Positions 24,476 to 36,053 of a stretch of DNA of 36,145 bases are shown in pieces. How positions within the stretch are numbered: the stretch's first letter is position 1; every line of letters begins with the position of its first letter. Source of the stretch: Pseudarcicella sp. (GTDB taxonomy: Bacteria; Bacteroidota; Bacteroidia; Cytophagales; Spirosomataceae); the NCBI GenBank assembly GCA_017988135.1, contig JAGNSI010000007.1, positions 1-36,145 on the forward strand, given 5' to 3'. The notes beneath the pieces were generated by a model, which worked only from the letters and a program-made list of their open reading frames with translations, searched no databases and was not told the origin of the DNA. Both the position numbers and the translations under genes were made by a program.

Positions 24476-26038
24476 TTACTTTTTAATAAATTTCCTTGTT
24501 TCTCTTGCATACTTACTTTGTATGTGTACAAAATAAAAACCAACAGGATAGTTAGAAACATTCAATTCAACTTTTTGAATTTGAGATAAATTGTTTTCTA
24601 CTTTAATAGAATCTAATTGTCCGCCCATTGAGTCAAAAACTCTTATTTGTGTGCCTTCTCCGATATTAGAAAATTCAATATTCAATGTACTAATTGCTGG
24701 ATTCGGGTAAAGTTTAAAATGAAAATTACTTTTAGCAATTTCTTGGTTCAAATCTAATGGTGAAAGTATACCACCTTTAAATAATGGCAATGTTTGAACA
24801 TTTGGATTGATTACACTACCTACCTCACTTTGGTTTAAGCCAAGCCAGTTCTGTAGAATAGTGCCATATATATCCCTAAAGTCATACTGCATAGCTACAC
24901 CTTCATCTGTTCCTACTTGAGTATCTATTACTGGGTGGGTACCTAATACTTGTTTTTCTACACGTGAACCGAAAAGGAATACAGGTGCAGCAGTGCCATG
25001 GTCAGTTCCTAAAGCGGCATTAGAACGAATTCTTCTTCCAAATTCGGAATAGGTCATTCCGGCAACTCTATCCTCTACTTTTAGTAACCTAAGGTCGTCT
25101 TGAAATGCAGAAACTGCATCAGAAAGCTCTTTAAGTAAATCTGAGTGTATACCTGTAGTAGTTGCACCACTTACCGCTTGATTGTCATGAGTGTCAAATC
25201 CTCCGAGTTGCACTACGTAGACTTTTGTTTGTAAACCACCTGCAATTAAGCGTGCAACATGTTTTAATTTTTGAGCAAGATCGGTTGTAAGACTACTCCA
25301 TTTTGTTGATAAGTTGTTGCCAGAATTTGCAGCAGCACTTATCACTGAAGCAAACGCATTAGTCTGCTTTACGGTTTCATTTACAAATGATAACGCTTCT
25401 CCAAAACAATCTGAAGGAATACTTCCTCCTGCACTTACCAGAGCTGTTCCAGGATTGAAAGGGTCTAGCAATGATAAGCTATAGTTTGCATTTACCCCTT
25501 GGCAGGTTTCGGAAGTTATTTTCCCCATTGTTATGGCAAATGGGTGTGGTTTTGTTGTGTTTGGATAACCATTCGGATAGTCAGAATAGTTCAAATCGTA
25601 CATTCTTCCTATCCAGCCAGTAGTGTCAAAATCTTCAGCACTTGATGCGGAATTCCAAATATCGTTTGATCTAAAGTGAGAACGATTTTGATTAGGATAT
25701 CCTACATTCTGCACTATGCCCAAGCTATCCATGTTCCAAACATCTTTCATTCCTTGCATTGATGAATGAAAGCCATAGTTGTTATGAAAATTGATAATCG
25801 ATGATTCGGGAATAATGATATTATTTCTTACAGCTTTTAAGTTGGCGTATTGTGCCGAATCAAAAATTGTTGCTAGACCGTCATTTCCTCCTTGTAATTG
25901 AACAAGTACTAATATTTTATCATTATTAGCGTCAAACATAGTCGACTTTGGTTTTGCCGCCGCAAATAATGGAAATCCACCCATAGTAAAAGGAATGGAT
26001 GCCAACGCTGTATTTTTTATAAAATCTCTTCTATTCAT
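24476..26038 (-). CDS. DUF1501 family protein with Tat-type signal and T9SS sorting domain
   Basis: A 520-residue exported protein. The N-terminus NRRDFIKNTALASIPF is a twin-arginine type signal. The middle is the DUF1501 domain (sulfatase/alkaline-phosphatase-like fold), with LVQLQGGNDG near residue 43, FDTHDNQ near 283 and GTDHGTAAPVF near 346. Residues 442-520 are a type A T9SS C-terminal domain (KLYPNPAISTLNIEF ... YFVHIQ ... KFIKK), which directs secretion to or beyond the outer surface. The biochemical function of DUF1501 is not established. It is translated right after its usual partner DUF1800 (10-base gap). Confidence 0.88.
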   Translation of the reverse strand: MNRRDFIKNTALASIPFTMGGFPLFAAAKPKSTMFDANNDKILVLVQLQGGNDGLATIFDSAQYANLKAVRNNIIIPESSIINFHNNYGFHSSMQGMKDVWNMDSLGIVQNVGYPNQNRSHFRSNDIWNSASSAEDFDTTGWIGRMYDLNYSDYPNGYPNTTKPHPFAITMGKITSETCQGVNANYSLSLLDPFNPGTALVSAGGSIPSDCFGEALSFVNETVKQTNAFASVISAAANSGNNLSTKWSSLTTDLAQKLKHVARLIAGGLQTKVYVVQLGGFDTHDNQAVSGATTTGIHSDLLKELSDAVSAFQDDLRLLKVEDRVAGMTYSEFGRRIRSNAALGTDHGTAAPVFLFGSRVEKQVLGTHPVIDTQVGTDEGVAMQYDFRDIYGTILQNWLGLNQSEVGSVINPNVQTLPLFKGGILSPLDLNQEIAKSNFHFKLYPNPAISTLNIEFSNIGEGTQIRVFDSMGGQLDSIKVENNLSQIQKVELNVSNYPVGFYFVHIQSKYARETRKFIKK

Positions 26039-26048
26039 GGTTTTATTG

Positions 26049-27674
26049 TTACATTATTTGAAATTCTGACATTCTAACCATGACAGAAAATAAGCTTTTT
26101 AATTTGTTTTGTACAGATTGAAGAGTTAGCAAATTTGTAGGGTTTGCTAAATATTTGGAATATTCTACAGTCCATTCAAAATCAGGTAGTCCAGGTATAA
26201 GTACATCTTTTAAACTAGTTAATTGACCACTTGTTATTGGATAATTAAACATTATCTCCGCTAATTTATTAATGAGTATATTGGGGTCTTTAGCATTAGG
26301 AATATTCTTTACGATGTCTAATACAGGTACTAAAGTTGTAATGCTATAATTTTCTTCATTGTATGTGTATACTCCTCCATCAACCATCAATTTGCAGAAC
26401 TGATGACGTTTTGGCAATAATAAATTATTTATCCATAATTTGTCATATTGCGGTGCTTGGTAATATGCTTTCCAGCCTGCAACATTAGGATGATAATAAA
26501 GTGCCTGCTCCATGTCTGAACTCATTATATAATGATGATAAGCATGGTCATATTCTTTTCCTACATTATCTTGAGGTGGATTTATGCCTAGTCCTCTTGA
26601 AGCAGACATGATTAAATCCATAGGGCTTTTGATCATACACGCTGTAGATTGGAAAAAGTGTTCTGATTTAAAAAGAACTTTCAAAGCAGGTGCAATTTCG
26701 TAATCATTATTTCTTAAAATAGTTGCTAACGGTATGATGACGTTTGTTTCTATGTCATTTGTTATTTCATGACTAACAAACCAACGGTATAATTTTCTCA
26801 TAATAAAACGAGAACATTCTTCTTGTTTGAAAATTATATCAATTAGGTTTTTGTATTCTTGATTGCCACTTGAAGTAATTACAGCATTGTTAAACTTTGA
26901 TGACAATTGTTTATTACCTGTAGTGTGACTATTGGTAGAAAACTGTGCAGTTAATGTACTTGTACTAGAAATGGGTGGTACCTGCCAGCCAGTAAGAGCT
27001 TTTGCCATAGCTATGACATCGTCTTCTGTATAGTTGGTATAGTCACCTGGTGCTATTAATGGACCTTTTCCTACTGTAAATAATTCTAATAATTCTCTTG
27101 AATAATTCTCATTCGGAGCAACATTGGTGTTTTCTGCACCACTTAGGTACAATAACATCCCAGTATCTATTGTGATTTCTTTGGTCAAAGCTTTGAAGTT
27201 TCCAGTAGCAAAACTTCGTAATAGTTTGTAGTACAAATACTCTCTATGCCCAATAGTTCCATCAGCCACTACGAAATGATTATGCCAAAACAAAGCCAAT
27301 TTCTCTGTGATTGAGATACCAGAATAATGCATTTGCAAAATTGTCCATGAATAAAGTGACTTGCTTCTTGCTCTAAGCACTCTATTACGTAACATTGGCG
27401 GGCTTATATTGGGAAAAGGCACCGAGTTTACCCATGTTTGTCCATACAGTGCACCTGGGTCGTTTAGTTGGTTGCTACCAGTACCATCAGGAATGGTCTT
27501 TACTGGAGGATTTGGGATAGGCATTTGTTTAAATAACTCATCAATTGTACTATTTAACCCTAAATTTGTTGCACTATCTACCATCTGTATTGATGGTCCA
27601 AATGTAGTTCGTTTTAGAAGATGTCTAGCTTGCTTGGAGGTCCAATCTCCTGAGTATTGATCTAAATATGGCAT
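26049..27674 (-). CDS. DUF1800 family protein
   Basis: A 541-residue protein of the DUF1800 family, which nearly always sits beside DUF1501. Characteristic parts are ARHLLKRTTFGP near residue 16, LFWHNHFV (about 127-134), NENYSRELLELFTVG (about 187-201) and a late NVAGWKAYYQ. The reaction is unknown. The start is fixed: an in-frame stop lies 9 bases before the ATG at 27674, so there is no signal peptide, and no T9SS domain is seen at the C-terminus (ending FQIM). Export, if any, must follow another route than that of its partner. Confidence 0.85.
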   Translation of the reverse strand: MPYLDQYSGDWTSKQARHLLKRTTFGPSIQMVDSATNLGLNSTIDELFKQMPIPNPPVKTIPDGTGSNQLNDPGALYGQTWVNSVPFPNISPPMLRNRVLRARSKSLYSWTILQMHYSGISITEKLALFWHNHFVVADGTIGHREYLYYKLLRSFATGNFKALTKEITIDTGMLLYLSGAENTNVAPNENYSRELLELFTVGKGPLIAPGDYTNYTEDDVIAMAKALTGWQVPPISSTSTLTAQFSTNSHTTGNKQLSSKFNNAVITSSGNQEYKNLIDIIFKQEECSRFIMRKLYRWFVSHEITNDIETNVIIPLATILRNNDYEIAPALKVLFKSEHFFQSTACMIKSPMDLIMSASRGLGINPPQDNVGKEYDHAYHHYIMSSDMEQALYYHPNVAGWKAYYQAPQYDKLWINNLLLPKRHQFCKLMVDGGVYTYNEENYSITTLVPVLDIVKNIPNAKDPNILINKLAEIMFNYPITSGQLTSLKDVLIPGLPDFEWTVEYSKYLANPTNLLTLQSVQNKLKSLFSVMVRMSEFQIM

Positions 27675-28478
27675 GATTAGTTATTATTGTTTTAAAATTG
27701 ATTGTATCGTCCGAGGGCTTTTCGTGCGGATGGACCTATTGAGACCTAGGTTAATGATTTTTATTGATTTTAAATGAAAAGTGATCTTTAAATTTACACC
27801 AAAGCCTTCTTGACGTAATAATGTTGAACTAATTTTTTGCTTGTTTTTGTATTAAATTTTTTTTATAATGCAAAGATAAGCAATTTTTACTATGACCAAA
27901 AAAGGTTTTGAAAAAATTAGTATTGCCTAATAATTTCCTTTATTAATTACAAAAACATATAAGAATATGATAAAGTAATCAAGTAGTTAAGGTAACTATT
28001 TATATTTAAAATTTTAATAAGTAAGTCTTATTTTTTGAGGTTTTAATTGCTGAAATTATATAATTTGCAATTTTTTTTATGAGTAGCTCATTTTTTTATT
28101 GTGTTTTTTAAAATATAAAGCTCGATAAAGGTCAGAAATTTAAAACATAAAGTAACGTTGAAATTTAATATGAAAAGAAATTAAATGGATTCTTTAATGT
28201 GTGTACGTTTTTTGTGTATTTAAATAAATGTATTTTTAATATTTGCCAAAACAATAAATGTATTAGTATTTAAAAAGTATTATTTAATATTAAAATATTT
28301 ACATTATTTTCTTTGTCAATTCAATATTTTTCTCTATATTCATATCAACATTAAGTAATAAATATTGTTATACATTTAAAAAAATATAAGTTCTATTTAC
28401 AAATTATTCTCAAGTCTTTTGTTACACAAGACTTTTACCCGTTTTTAGTATTTGTTTTAGTTTAGATTAAGTTAAAGA
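27675..28478. other. Long non-coding region between divergent DUF1800 and C25 peptidase genes
   Basis: About 800 very AT-rich bases with no credible gene. It must hold both promoters, but no exact TAnnTTTG box with a good -33 was found. A small G+C-richer island at 27709-27735 can pair GTCC with GGAC in the DUF1800 leader. A 7-bp stem AAGTCTT/AAGACTT (28412-28434) is followed by T-rich DNA and could be an attenuator-like hairpin in the peptidase leader. Confidence 0.5.
28412..28434 (+). other. Short hairpin in the C25 peptidase leader
   Basis: AAGTCTT (28412-28418) pairs with AAGACTT (28428-28434) around a 9-base loop. T-rich sequence follows after a few bases. It may be a leader structure or weak terminator about 100 bases before the start codon; significance is uncertain in this AT-rich gap. 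Confidence 0.3.
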
Positions 28479-28499
28479 ACTAATACCGCCATATTAGTT
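28479..28499. repeat. 21-bp palindromic element, copy 1 (upstream of the C25 start)
   Basis: ACTAATACCGCCATATTAGTT, identical to 28546-28566. It contains a perfect inverted repeat, ACTAATA and TATTAGT, around CCGCCA. It lies 35 bases before the ATG at 28534. It could be a protein-binding site or an RNA stem. Confidence 0.85.
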
Positions 28500-28533
28500 T
28501 TTGATTTTATTCGAATTTTTTAATTTAATATTA

Positions 28534-31500
28534 ATGAAAAAATTGACTAATACCGCCATATTAGTTAATTTGTTCTTATTATGTGCTTCGTCTTTTTCTC
28601 AAGTTAAGGTTGAGAATAATTGGATAAATAACGAACAGATTTACTATAAATTAAAAGTATCTACTGAAGGGATTTTCAAAGTTACTCGCCAAGAGCTTGT
28701 TCAAGCTGGAATGGAGGTTACGAATGTTAATCCAATCAATTTTCAATTATATCATCACGGAAAAGAATTAGCTTTCAAGTTGATAGGGGAAGAAGATGGT
28801 AGTTTCGACGCTCAAGATTATTTGCTTTTCTATGCCAAACCAAACAATGGTGTTCAAGATTCACTTGTGTACAGGCCGGCTTCTGCTCGTATGAATAAAT
28901 ACCACAGTATGTATTCAGATAATACTTACTATTATCTTACAGTTGGTAATGCTGCAGGTAAACGCATGGTTTTTGAAAAAGTATATTCTGATGACAATAT
29001 TCCAGAAGAATCTTATCATTTAGAGGAAAAACTTATACTTAATACTCAAAAATATACTTTCAACGATTTTGTAGGTTTGCCAAGTAAACTCAAACAAAGT
29101 TACTATGTGGCAGGTGAGGGTAGAAGTGGCAATAAGATTTCTACACTTGTTGAAAATATAGACCACATTACATTGTCGAATCTTTTTAATGCCCAAAGTT
29201 CACCCAAACCAATTATAGAAGTAAATGCCAACGGTAGGTCATTTGGGTATAAAAAAGTACAGCTTTCGATTCGAAACTCGGAATTGAGAGATCTGACACC
29301 CTTTTTTATTAGCGACTTCAATCAGATTATCCATAAAGGAGAGCTCGAATGGTCAGACTTCGATTCTGCCAACTCTTTTTCACTTATTACCAAATGTACT
29401 AGCGCCGAAGCCAATCAGTTTTGTTCTATTACACACATAAAAATAGTGTATCCGCAAAGTTTTGACATGCAAAGTGTGAGACAAAAAACATTTTTTTTGC
29501 AACCTAGTGTCTCCGAAAATTCTAAAATAAATATTAAAAGCTCTGATTCTTTGCAATATGCACTCAACGTGACGGATTTTTATAATCCTGTGAGTTTGAA
29601 TTTTGATAAAGTTAACGATGGTGTCCAATTGATTTTATCAAGAAAAAACACAAAAGAACAGCTTTTTTTGAGTTCAAACACACATCAAGTAAGCGAAGTT
29701 AGTATTTTTCTGCCAATAGAATTGATTCAAGAAAAAAAGAATTTTTTGATAGTTACTCATCCTTCATTGCGTTCATCGGCAGAGCAATATGCTCATTACA
29801 GAAGCTCAGAGCAAGGTGGATCGTATAAAGTACAAGTAGAAACAATTACAAATCTGTACGATAATTTCACCTTTGGCGAAAAAAATCCGATGGCTATTAG
29901 GAAATATTTGAGTTTTTTGCTCCAAAACAATCATTTTCCTGAAAACTTATTTATAATAGGAAGTTCCTATTCGGCAAGTGACTCTTTAAAGTTGAAAGAA
30001 AATATTGATTTGGTGCCTACAGTAGGTTATCCAGGCTCAGACGTGCTATTGTCGGCTGGTTTAAACGGTTATTCAAAAGATGTACAATCTATTCCTACAG
30101 GCAGGATAAATGCTACAAATAATCAGCAAGTACTTGACTATTTGGTAAAAGTGATAGAATTTGAACATCCAGATTTCACCGTAGCTGCGTCTAAAAATAT
30201 TTTACACCTCAATGGTGGAAATACGACATATCAAATAGATTATTTCAAACAAGTGCTCAATAACAATGCACAAAGAATTGTCAATGAAGATTCTACCTTT
30301 AAGTTTGAAGCGATACAAAAAACGAATCCAGCTATCTATGAAAATGTAAATATAGCCGAGCAACTAAACAAAGGTGTTAAAATGCTTACTTTTTTGGGTC
30401 ATGCTACACCTACCCGACCAGACGTTAATATTGGTTTTGTGAGTAACACAACACTCGGTTATCAAAACAAAGGGAAATATCCATTTATGTATTTTGTGGG
30501 ATGTAGGGTTGGCGATATTTTCAATTACTACAACACTATTGGCTCAGACTGGATATTTACGCCAGAAAAAGGTAGCGTAGCAGTGTTGTCGAATAGTTAT
30601 TTTGCTTTTCAAGGATATGTAGAACCTTATTTGGAAGAATTTTATAAAAATTTATTGTCTCACAATAAATATAAAAAAGTATCAATAGGGCAAGCCATTC
30701 AGCAATCGTCAAAATATACTGCAGGTACGCAATATGGGACTTTCCCTTTTCAGATAGCACATTTACACCAAACTATTTTGCAAGGAGATCCATCATTGAA
30801 GTTGTATGTTGAACCCACTATTGATGTAGTTCTAAAGTCGGAAAAAGAAACTTGTATAGATAAAGATTTAACCATAAAAATAAAAGCTAATAGTCAGGCA
30901 GCACCCTATGTGTTTGATTATTCTTTTAATGATGTATTTGGTCAGATTTTGTCAGATTCGTTAGGGATGGCTAATGTATCTATAAATAACAAATCATTGG
31001 GCATAAATACTTTTATATTAGAAGGGGTTAGAAGTGCAAAAGGAATGCTGGATGTAAATTTTCTGAACAAAAGTATAAAGATAAATGTCACAGAGCCGGG
31101 GCTTTCATTGGATAAAGATGCGGCATCGTGCGAAATTCAAACAACTATCCATGCCGACTTGTATTGTGAAGGTAGCTGTAGAATAGCGGCTTCTATATTG
31201 TCAGTGGGGGCTTCACCTGTGCATGGTAAGGTGAATTCACAAGTTTTTATTGAAAATCAAATAATAAATGCTGCAGGAAAATCTTACTTGCAAAGGCATT
31301 ATGACATAGAACCAGTTTTAAACGCTACCACAGCAACAGCAAAAATTACACTATATTTTCTGCAATCTGAGTTTGATGCTTTCAATGAAAATGCTAGATC
31401 AAAAGGTTTACCTTTGCTTCCAAGTTACAATGCAACCGATCAGTCAGCAAAAAAACATTTAAAAATACTTCAGATTCATGGCGAAAGTGATGGAACTGGG

Positions 31501-32190
31501 TATGGCATAGAAAACTATCATGGCGAAAAAGTAGAAATCTCTCCTGCTGAAAATGATATAGTTTGGAATGCACAAGAACAACGCTGGGAAGTGAGTTTTA
31601 TGGTGCAAGGTTTCAGTGCTTTTTTTGTTACCACCAGGCCTTTGGCAGCACCTTTGGGTGTTTCGTTAGTAGATTTTAAAGTCAAAAAAGTTGAAGGTAA
31701 AAATAAAATCAGCTGGTCTGTAGCTGATGTTGAAAAAAACACTTATTTCGACTTGGAGCGAAGTATTTCTGTGACAGTTGGCTCAAAAAATCAATTTGAA
31801 AGTATTCAAAACTTCGTCGGTAATCAAATAGAATTTACACATATTGATTCAGAAAATAGTAATGCAGCTATTGTCTATTATAGATTGAAAATAGTAAATG
31901 AACAGAATGGGAGTGTTACATTTTCTAAAATCATAAAAATCGAAAACAATGAAAAAGATGATGAAGTGCAATTGATATTTAGTAATCCAATTGATAACAA
32001 TGATGAAGTGAAAGTATTAAATAAAGAAAATTTATTAGAATTGGAATTGATAAGTTTCAGTGGTTTGAAAATAAAAAAATATAAATTAAATGATAAAGTG
32101 AATTTGTTTGGAATAAATCAGGGTGGATATATTTTTAAAGTTGTACAGAAAAAAGGTAAAATAAGTTTTTATAAAGTGATAAAGAAATAG
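28534..32190 (+). CDS. Secreted gingipain-like C25 cysteine peptidase with T9SS sorting domain
   Basis: A 1218-residue exported protein. The signal peptide (MKKLTNTAILVNLFLLCASSFSQ) is followed by a long beta-rich N-terminal region, then a C25 peptidase domain (about residues 410-760). The catalytic pair is visible: H623 in FLGHATP and C657 in FVGCRVGD, 34 residues apart, close to the His-Cys spacing of gingipains. C-terminal beta domains end in a T9SS-type sorting domain (LELISFSGLKIKKYKL...GGYIFKVVQ). PorU, the T9SS sortase, belongs to the same family but lacks its own sorting domain, so this is more likely a secreted substrate peptidase. The frame opens at TTG 28501, but the ATG at 28534 starts the signal peptide. 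Confidence 0.88.
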   Translation: MKKLTNTAILVNLFLLCASSFSQVKVENNWINNEQIYYKLKVSTEGIFKVTRQELVQAGMEVTNVNPINFQLYHHGKELAFKLIGEEDGSFDAQDYLLFYAKPNNGVQDSLVYRPASARMNKYHSMYSDNTYYYLTVGNAAGKRMVFEKVYSDDNIPEESYHLEEKLILNTQKYTFNDFVGLPSKLKQSYYVAGEGRSGNKISTLVENIDHITLSNLFNAQSSPKPIIEVNANGRSFGYKKVQLSIRNSELRDLTPFFISDFNQIIHKGELEWSDFDSANSFSLITKCTSAEANQFCSITHIKIVYPQSFDMQSVRQKTFFLQPSVSENSKINIKSSDSLQYALNVTDFYNPVSLNFDKVNDGVQLILSRKNTKEQLFLSSNTHQVSEVSIFLPIELIQEKKNFLIVTHPSLRSSAEQYAHYRSSEQGGSYKVQVETITNLYDNFTFGEKNPMAIRKYLSFLLQNNHFPENLFIIGSSYSASDSLKLKENIDLVPTVGYPGSDVLLSAGLNGYSKDVQSIPTGRINATNNQQVLDYLVKVIEFEHPDFTVAASKNILHLNGGNTTYQIDYFKQVLNNNAQRIVNEDSTFKFEAIQKTNPAIYENVNIAEQLNKGVKMLTFLGHATPTRPDVNIGFVSNTTLGYQNKGKYPFMYFVGCRVGDIFNYYNTIGSDWIFTPEKGSVAVLSNSYFAFQGYVEPYLEEFYKNLLSHNKYKKVSIGQAIQQSSKYTAGTQYGTFPFQIAHLHQTILQGDPSLKLYVEPTIDVVLKSEKETCIDKDLTIKIKANSQAAPYVFDYSFNDVFGQILSDSLGMANVSINNKSLGINTFILEGVRSAKGMLDVNFLNKSIKINVTEPGLSLDKDAASCEIQTTIHADLYCEGSCRIAASILSVGASPVHGKVNSQVFIENQIINAAGKSYLQRHYDIEPVLNATTATAKITLYFLQSEFDAFNENARSKGLPLLPSYNATDQSAKKHLKILQIHGESDGTGYGIENYHGEKVEISPAENDIVWNAQEQRWEVSFMVQGFSAFFVTTRPLAAPLGVSLVDFKVKKVEGKNKISWSVADVEKNTYFDLERSISVTVGSKNQFESIQNFVGNQIEFTHIDSENSNAAIVYYRLKIVNEQNGSVTFSKIIKIENNEKDDEVQLIFSNPIDNNDEVKVLNKENLLELELISFSGLKIKKYKLNDKVNLFGINQGGYIFKVVQKKGKISFYKVIKK
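28546..28566. repeat. 21-bp palindromic element, copy 2 (inside the signal peptide codons)
   Basis: An exact copy of 28479-28499, 67 bases downstream. It lies in frame within the signal peptide and encodes TNTAILV. Together the copies bracket the ATG at 28534. Either arm of one copy can pair with the other copy, so alternative RNA folds around the start are possible. Confidence 0.85.
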
Positions 32191-34859: not shown

Positions 34860-36053
34860 TTGATACTACCAGTAGATATTTATAATTCTAACAATTGGCT
34901 AAAATTAGCATTCTTAATATTTTGTATTTTGATAGGCGGATTGTCGCTATTTTATACAAGCAATATAGTGGATAAGCTACAGTCAAGAGAAAAAGAACAA
35001 ATAGAGCTTTATGCCGAATCACTAAAATACGTAATTACCAGCGAATTGGACAAAGATGTTACTTTTTTGTTTGAAAAAATAAAAAAATCAAACGAAAATA
35101 TAACCATTCCGATAGTATATAAAAATACGAGTGGTTTTTTGGAAGGCTATCATGTAGATATGCCCGAAAATTTAAGTCCAGAAGCCCAGCAAGTATTTTT
35201 GAAATTGAAGCTTCAAGATATACTGAAAGACGACTATCAGCCCATAGAAGTAGACACTGGTCTGAAAGATAAAATTTATATTTATTATGGAAATTCATTA
35301 TTGCTCAATCAACTGAAATATTTTCCATTGTTGCAATTGGCATTGGTATTGATTTTTGGTTTTGTAGCTTATTTGGCCTTTAGTTCGGCACGAAAAGCAG
35401 AGCAGAATAGGGTTTGGGTTGGGTTGGCAAAAGAAACCGCCCACCAGCTAGGAACTCCTTTGACATCGCTCATTGCATGGATAGAATATTTTAAAAATGA
35501 CCCTAAATATGACATTGAAATTGTAAAAGAATTAGAAAAAGACGTACAGAGATTAGACGTTATTACCACAAGATTTTCAAATATTGGCTCCGTACCAATA
35601 TTAAAAGAAGAAGATATTTTTATAGTGGTAAGTGAGTTTTTGAGTTATCTACAAAAACGAATTTCTACCAAAATAAAAGTTGAAATCATCAATACATTAG
35701 CACAGACCAATCAAGTAAAGATTAATAAATATTTGTTTGAATGGGTGATTGAAAATATTTGTAAAAACGCAGTAGATGCGATGACTGGCGTAGGTAAATT
35801 GACCGTAAATATTCAAGAAGATTTAAAATTAGAACAAATTTATATAGACATTTCGGATACTGGCAAAGGGATTTCAAAGCAAAATGTAAGTAAAGTTTTT
35901 GACGCAGGTTTCAGTACCAAAAAACGAGGCTGGGGCTTAGGTTTGACACTTGCCAAACGTATCATCGAAAATTATCATGGAGGTAAAATTTTTGTTAAAA
36001 GTAACGAACTAAACAAGGGAGTGACCTTCAGGATATCTTTACCCATTAAATAA
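34860..36053 (+). CDS. Membrane sensor histidine kinase
   Basis: A 397-residue two-component kinase. Two membrane helices (about residues 14-32 and 158-178) bracket a periplasmic sensor region of about 125 residues with no recognised domain. No HAMP or PAS domain is seen. The H-box LAKETAHQLGTPLTSL has the phospho-accepting H195, followed by the N-box WVIENICKNAVDAM and the G-boxes DTGKGIS and GWGLGLTLAK. The start must be the TTG at 34860, because an in-frame TAA lies 15 bases upstream and no ATG is near; TTG is an uncommon choice. No response regulator is adjacent in the window, so its partner is unknown. Confidence 0.9.
   Translation: MILPVDIYNSNNWLKLAFLIFCILIGGLSLFYTSNIVDKLQSREKEQIELYAESLKYVITSELDKDVTFLFEKIKKSNENITIPIVYKNTSGFLEGYHVDMPENLSPEAQQVFLKLKLQDILKDDYQPIEVDTGLKDKIYIYYGNSLLLNQLKYFPLLQLALVLIFGFVAYLAFSSARKAEQNRVWVGLAKETAHQLGTPLTSLIAWIEYFKNDPKYDIEIVKELEKDVQRLDVITTRFSNIGSVPILKEEDIFIVVSEFLSYLQKRISTKIKVEIINTLAQTNQVKINKYLFEWVIENICKNAVDAMTGVGKLTVNIQEDLKLEQIYIDISDTGKGISKQNVSKVFDAGFSTKKRGWGLGLTLAKRIIENYHGGKIFVKSNELNKGVTFRISLPIK

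Follow-up and report, generated by a model that had tools for sequence, protein, structure and literature searches.

A duplicated stem-loop flanks the start codon of a PorU2-type peptidase gene in Pseudarcicella sp. and might restrain its translation

In Pseudarcicella sp., a PorU2-type C25 peptidase gene has its start codon between two exact copies of a 21-bp palindromic element, each predicted to fold into a stem-loop in the mRNA (Table 1). The leading interpretation, which is held tentatively, is that the stem-loop is a recent local copy that works in cis to hold back the initiation of translation.

A sequence check confirms the original prediction that ACTAATACCGCCATATTAGTT occurs exactly at 28479-28499 and 28546-28566 of the window (the whole 36,145-nt stretch of DNA analysed), with the ATG (28534) between the copies, and that perfect 7-bp arms flank CCGCCA in each copy. 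The second copy does fall inside the predicted signal peptide (MKKLTNTAILVNLFLLCASSFSQ), where it makes up codons 5-11 (TNTAILV). The starts of the copies are separated by 67 bp, and the Watson-Crick arms of copy 1 reach 8 bp (28478-28499). Such a repeat had been called very unlikely by chance, and dinucleotide shuffles of the window, which yield 0 matches at up to three mismatches, bear this out; at the same threshold the window holds no third copy. A lone palindrome of this size is ordinary in window DNA (33.6% G+C), where 11 hairpins have arms of at least 7 bp and a 6-base loop, and the exact duplication is the unusual part. Exact repeats of at least 18 bp within 150 bp occur at only 12 loci in 558 kb of the same genome, window included. 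A perfect 12-bp inverted repeat, AATTATTCTCAA / TTGAGAATAATT at 28402-28413 and 28610-28621, surrounds the two-hairpin region and could be due to chance.

Table 1. Features at the start of the PorU2-type gene (window positions)
Feature	Positions	Strand	Basis
Possible weak Bacteroidetes-type promoter, TTTA-N20-TAGTTTAG	28434..28465	+	scores 10/12
Hairpin 1, in the presumed 5' leader; contains copy 1 (28479-28499); 11-bp RNA stem around CCGCCA	28474..28503	+	
AT-rich DNA separating the copies; holds the start codon and translation initiation region	28500..28545	+	sequence
Gene for the PorU2-type C25 peptidase (1218 aa); signal peptide, weak T9SS C-terminal domain match	28534..32190	+	profile matches
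Hairpin 2, over signal-peptide codons from +7; contains copy 2 (28546-28566); 13-bp RNA stem around CCGCCA	28540..28571	+	

The peptidase matches the C25 domain (PF01364, 206 bits) and the NCBIfam model for putative T9SS sortase PorU2 (702 bits against a cut-off of 450). On the minus strand at 24476-27674, two adjacent genes encode a DUF1800 protein and a DUF1501 protein whose C-terminal tail is of the T9SS type; they run divergently from the peptidase gene, from which a very A+T-rich intergenic gap of 860 bp separates them. Neither the sigma-70 nor the Bacteroidetes promoter scan gives a signal above shuffles. The promoter-like site listed in Table 1, the best placed of the Bacteroidetes type, could possibly place the transcript start just before hairpin 1; it is not above chance, since shuffles average 2.2 sites scoring at least 11.

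Folding predictions place two separate hairpins around the start codon. The stem of hairpin 1, AAGAACUAAUA/UAUUAGUUUUU, has 11 bp with one G-U pair and a 3' arm ending in UUUUU, while that of hairpin 2, AAAUUGACUAAUA/UAUUAGUUAAUUU, has 13 bp, also with one G-U pair. Folded alone, they reach -7.9 and -9.2 kcal/mol respectively, and both form in context with a predicted probability near 1. The stems extend past the 7-bp arms by 4 pairs in copy 1 and 6 pairs in copy 2, mostly with different bases between the copies; random flanks of similar composition give at least 4 extra pairs in 2.9% of cases and at least 6 in 0.5%, values that, like all p-values here, are indicative only, the palindrome having been picked out before the tests were run. 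The 181-nt region folds with a z-score of -3.1 against shuffles. Rfam models find no match to known riboswitch or RNA thermometer families in 28380-28640 at E-values up to 1. Copy 1 was also considered as an intrinsic terminator or attenuator and set aside, as no terminator-like site was found, only one pair of the stem is G-C, and the run of five U residues belongs to the 3' arm of the stem.

The stable structure over the initiation region that a translational brake would call for is predicted at -9.5 kcal/mol in positions -4 to +38, compared with a mean of -2.3 kcal/mol (sd 2.0) for 356 genes sampled from stretches of the same genome that total about 0.56 Mb. Only 2 of these 356 genes, the PorU2-type gene included, fold as stably at the start. 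The 13-bp stem is the longest start-region stem in the sample, and no other sampled gene combines a stem of 11 bp or more upstream of the start with another over it. When the first 14 codons are recoded synonymously, just 0.44% of the variants fold as well.

In Bacteroidetes, which do not use Shine-Dalgarno sites, start regions tend to stay unfolded, and a duplicated stem-loop at a start would therefore be a clean natural test of structural control of initiation without Shine-Dalgarno pairing. In Flavobacterium johnsoniae, where Shine-Dalgarno sites are likewise absent, pairing propensity is lowered from -20 to +20 and structure tunes initiation (PMC6847099). The brake interpretation supposes that a stem-loop was copied once, locally, leaving the same hairpin in the mRNA leader and over codons 3 to 13. 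The transcript would include hairpin 1, which may stabilise the 5' end or close the leader further. Hairpin 2, from the seventh coding base, would have to melt for the 30S subunit to bind; its 13-bp stem would occupy the mRNA channel of the initiating subunit, and initiation would be lowered in cis. This arrangement resembles known start-proximal stem-loops that lower initiation in having a stable stem from +7, in a region that is unpaired in well-translated genes (PMC6847099). It differs in that the leader carries the stem-loop a second time, as an exact copy, and its effect is so far a predicted one.

Comparison with related genes counts against a brake. A second PorU2-type protein is encoded in the same genome (G000:C18:15837-18128; 37% identical); its gene lacks the repeat, and the predicted fold of its start region is 0.0 kcal/mol, or unstructured. 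Among PorU2 relatives with at most 39% identity, no such repeat is found near the likely starts, several of which were placed only roughly by script. A recent duplication, moreover, needs no function. Almost as likely as the brake is a neutral local duplication, in which a hairpin-prone 21-bp stretch might have been copied by template switching or slippage with no selected role. The absence of the element from relatives is in keeping with such an event, as is the CCGCCA loop, which is constrained by neither a stem nor a dimer site and is nonetheless identical in both copies. Short local repeats at hairpins are also frequent in this genome: 522 kb contain 11 close-repeat loci, and 6 of these have a hairpin whose arms measure 15-22 bp inside the repeat or within 30 bp, where 1.6 loci would be expected if every hairpin with arms of 7 bp or longer is counted. 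What a neutral event leaves less well explained is that the repeat stops at the hairpin with no recognisable similarity in the flanks, that the stems run past the copied part with different bases, and that the predicted fold is exceptional among start regions. The local hairpin-anchored tandem arrays of this genome are likewise centred on a hairpin, but they consist of 46-59 bp tandem units at intrinsic-terminator-like hairpins, whereas the pair at the PorU2-type start shares only the 21-bp hairpin and no spacer.

Recent copying is favoured over independent selection of two sites because the six-base loops are identical and pairing does not require them to be. Copy 2 is probably the older copy, judging from the length of the signal peptide, which without codons 5-11 would be shorter than those of relatives: the relatives' signal peptides run about 24-28 residues to a conserved G-N-E-W-I motif, a length that the present peptide reaches only with the seven codons. 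An in-frame 21-bp insertion into the signal peptide is less likely, given that the relatives' peptides match the full present length, seven codons included. An old 67-bp tandem duplication was also rejected, the similarity of the flanks being not beyond chance (p 0.09-0.44).

The original prediction had pointed to other T9SS cargo genes as places where further copies might lie. Across the 2.7-Mb genome there are just the two copies at up to three mismatches, and the element is therefore not a regulon operator for such genes. The arm motif ACTAATA-N6-TATTAGT, with up to two mismatches, occurs 36 times in the genome against 52 times in a reversed control and is thus not enriched. Outside this genome, the best matches in 222 family genomes have two or three mismatches and are scattered; 390 genomes of the order hold no other match with zero or one mismatch, and an exact scan of viral contigs finds no copy. 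As far as the sampled collections reach, which include no congener, the element is private to this genome. A dispersed palindromic repeat family of the REP/BIME or Rickettsia palindromic element (RPE) kind is rejected, as two copies are all that is found at up to three mismatches. The pair is like these families in being a short palindrome with one copy in frame within a coding sequence, and unlike them in having only two copies in the genome, 67 bp apart. Rickettsia palindromic elements are also far longer than the 21-bp repeat described here.

A two-site DNA operator, on which a dimeric repressor would bind both 20-bp palindromes and shut off the PorU2-type gene alone, is unlikely. Both copies do carry a perfect 7-6-7 dyad and flank the start region, and two-site repressor operators similarly present two identical dyads near a gene start. 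Here, however, neither a regulator nor further sites are found: the genome holds no other copy, the arm motif does not exceed its reversed control, and no typical one-component regulator is recognised among the neighbours searched, though a sensor histidine kinase is encoded at 34860-36053. The 67-bp spacing, moreover, is a non-integer number of helical turns, and a dimer would not need the identical centre.

The original prediction also raised an RNA switch in which the arms of copy 1 pair with those of copy 2, so that the start codon is enclosed. The arms are indeed complementary between the copies, but in the predicted fold such cross-pairing costs 5.7 kcal/mol relative to the two local hairpins and has a probability of about 0.0001, and the local hairpins would form earlier during transcription, making this the least credible of the interpretations considered. 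The broader idea of an effect at the RNA level remains plausible, through separate local hairpins of which the second covers the first codons. The two identical CCGCCA stem-loops flanking the start codon might alternatively be bound as one bipartite site by a dedicated RNA-binding protein, which would clamp the initiation region of this T9SS-type protease; this seems improbable, and we know of no translational control by such a bipartite RNA-protein clamp described for Bacteroidetes.

It is very unlikely that the repeat is an assembly artefact or a pair of site-specific recombination sites. The genome is a 253-contig draft, which leaves room for an artefact, yet the repeat sits inside a 36-kb contig and not at its end. 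Dyads with a 6-bp core look like recombinase sites in form, but their asymmetric cores point the same way, and recombination would therefore delete the start codon and not invert it, over only 67 bp. An invertible promoter is rejected on the same grounds, as it would need inverted sites with identical cores and the cores here are direct.

The tandem arrays elsewhere in the genome are a separate observation. A search of the literature on template switching at hairpins and on terminator-linked minisatellites yielded no directly relevant work. Tandem arrays seeded at such hairpins would be informative about the way in which hairpins promote local duplication. In three relatives, samples of 144-200 kb contain 0-2 hairpin-linked loci each. 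In Pseudarcicella sp., arrays with units of about 46-59 bp lie at L065:14423-14511, L069:3113-3315, L070:4692-4851, L087:15587-15823, L089:2052-2310, L092:6823-7072 and L068:67-253. Each is anchored at a long terminator-like hairpin and repeats one arm plus a spacer, except at L068 and L087, where a hairpin, whole or shorter, is repeated together with the spacer. In L068, the seventh array, inspection shows a terminator-like hairpin that is repeated whole.
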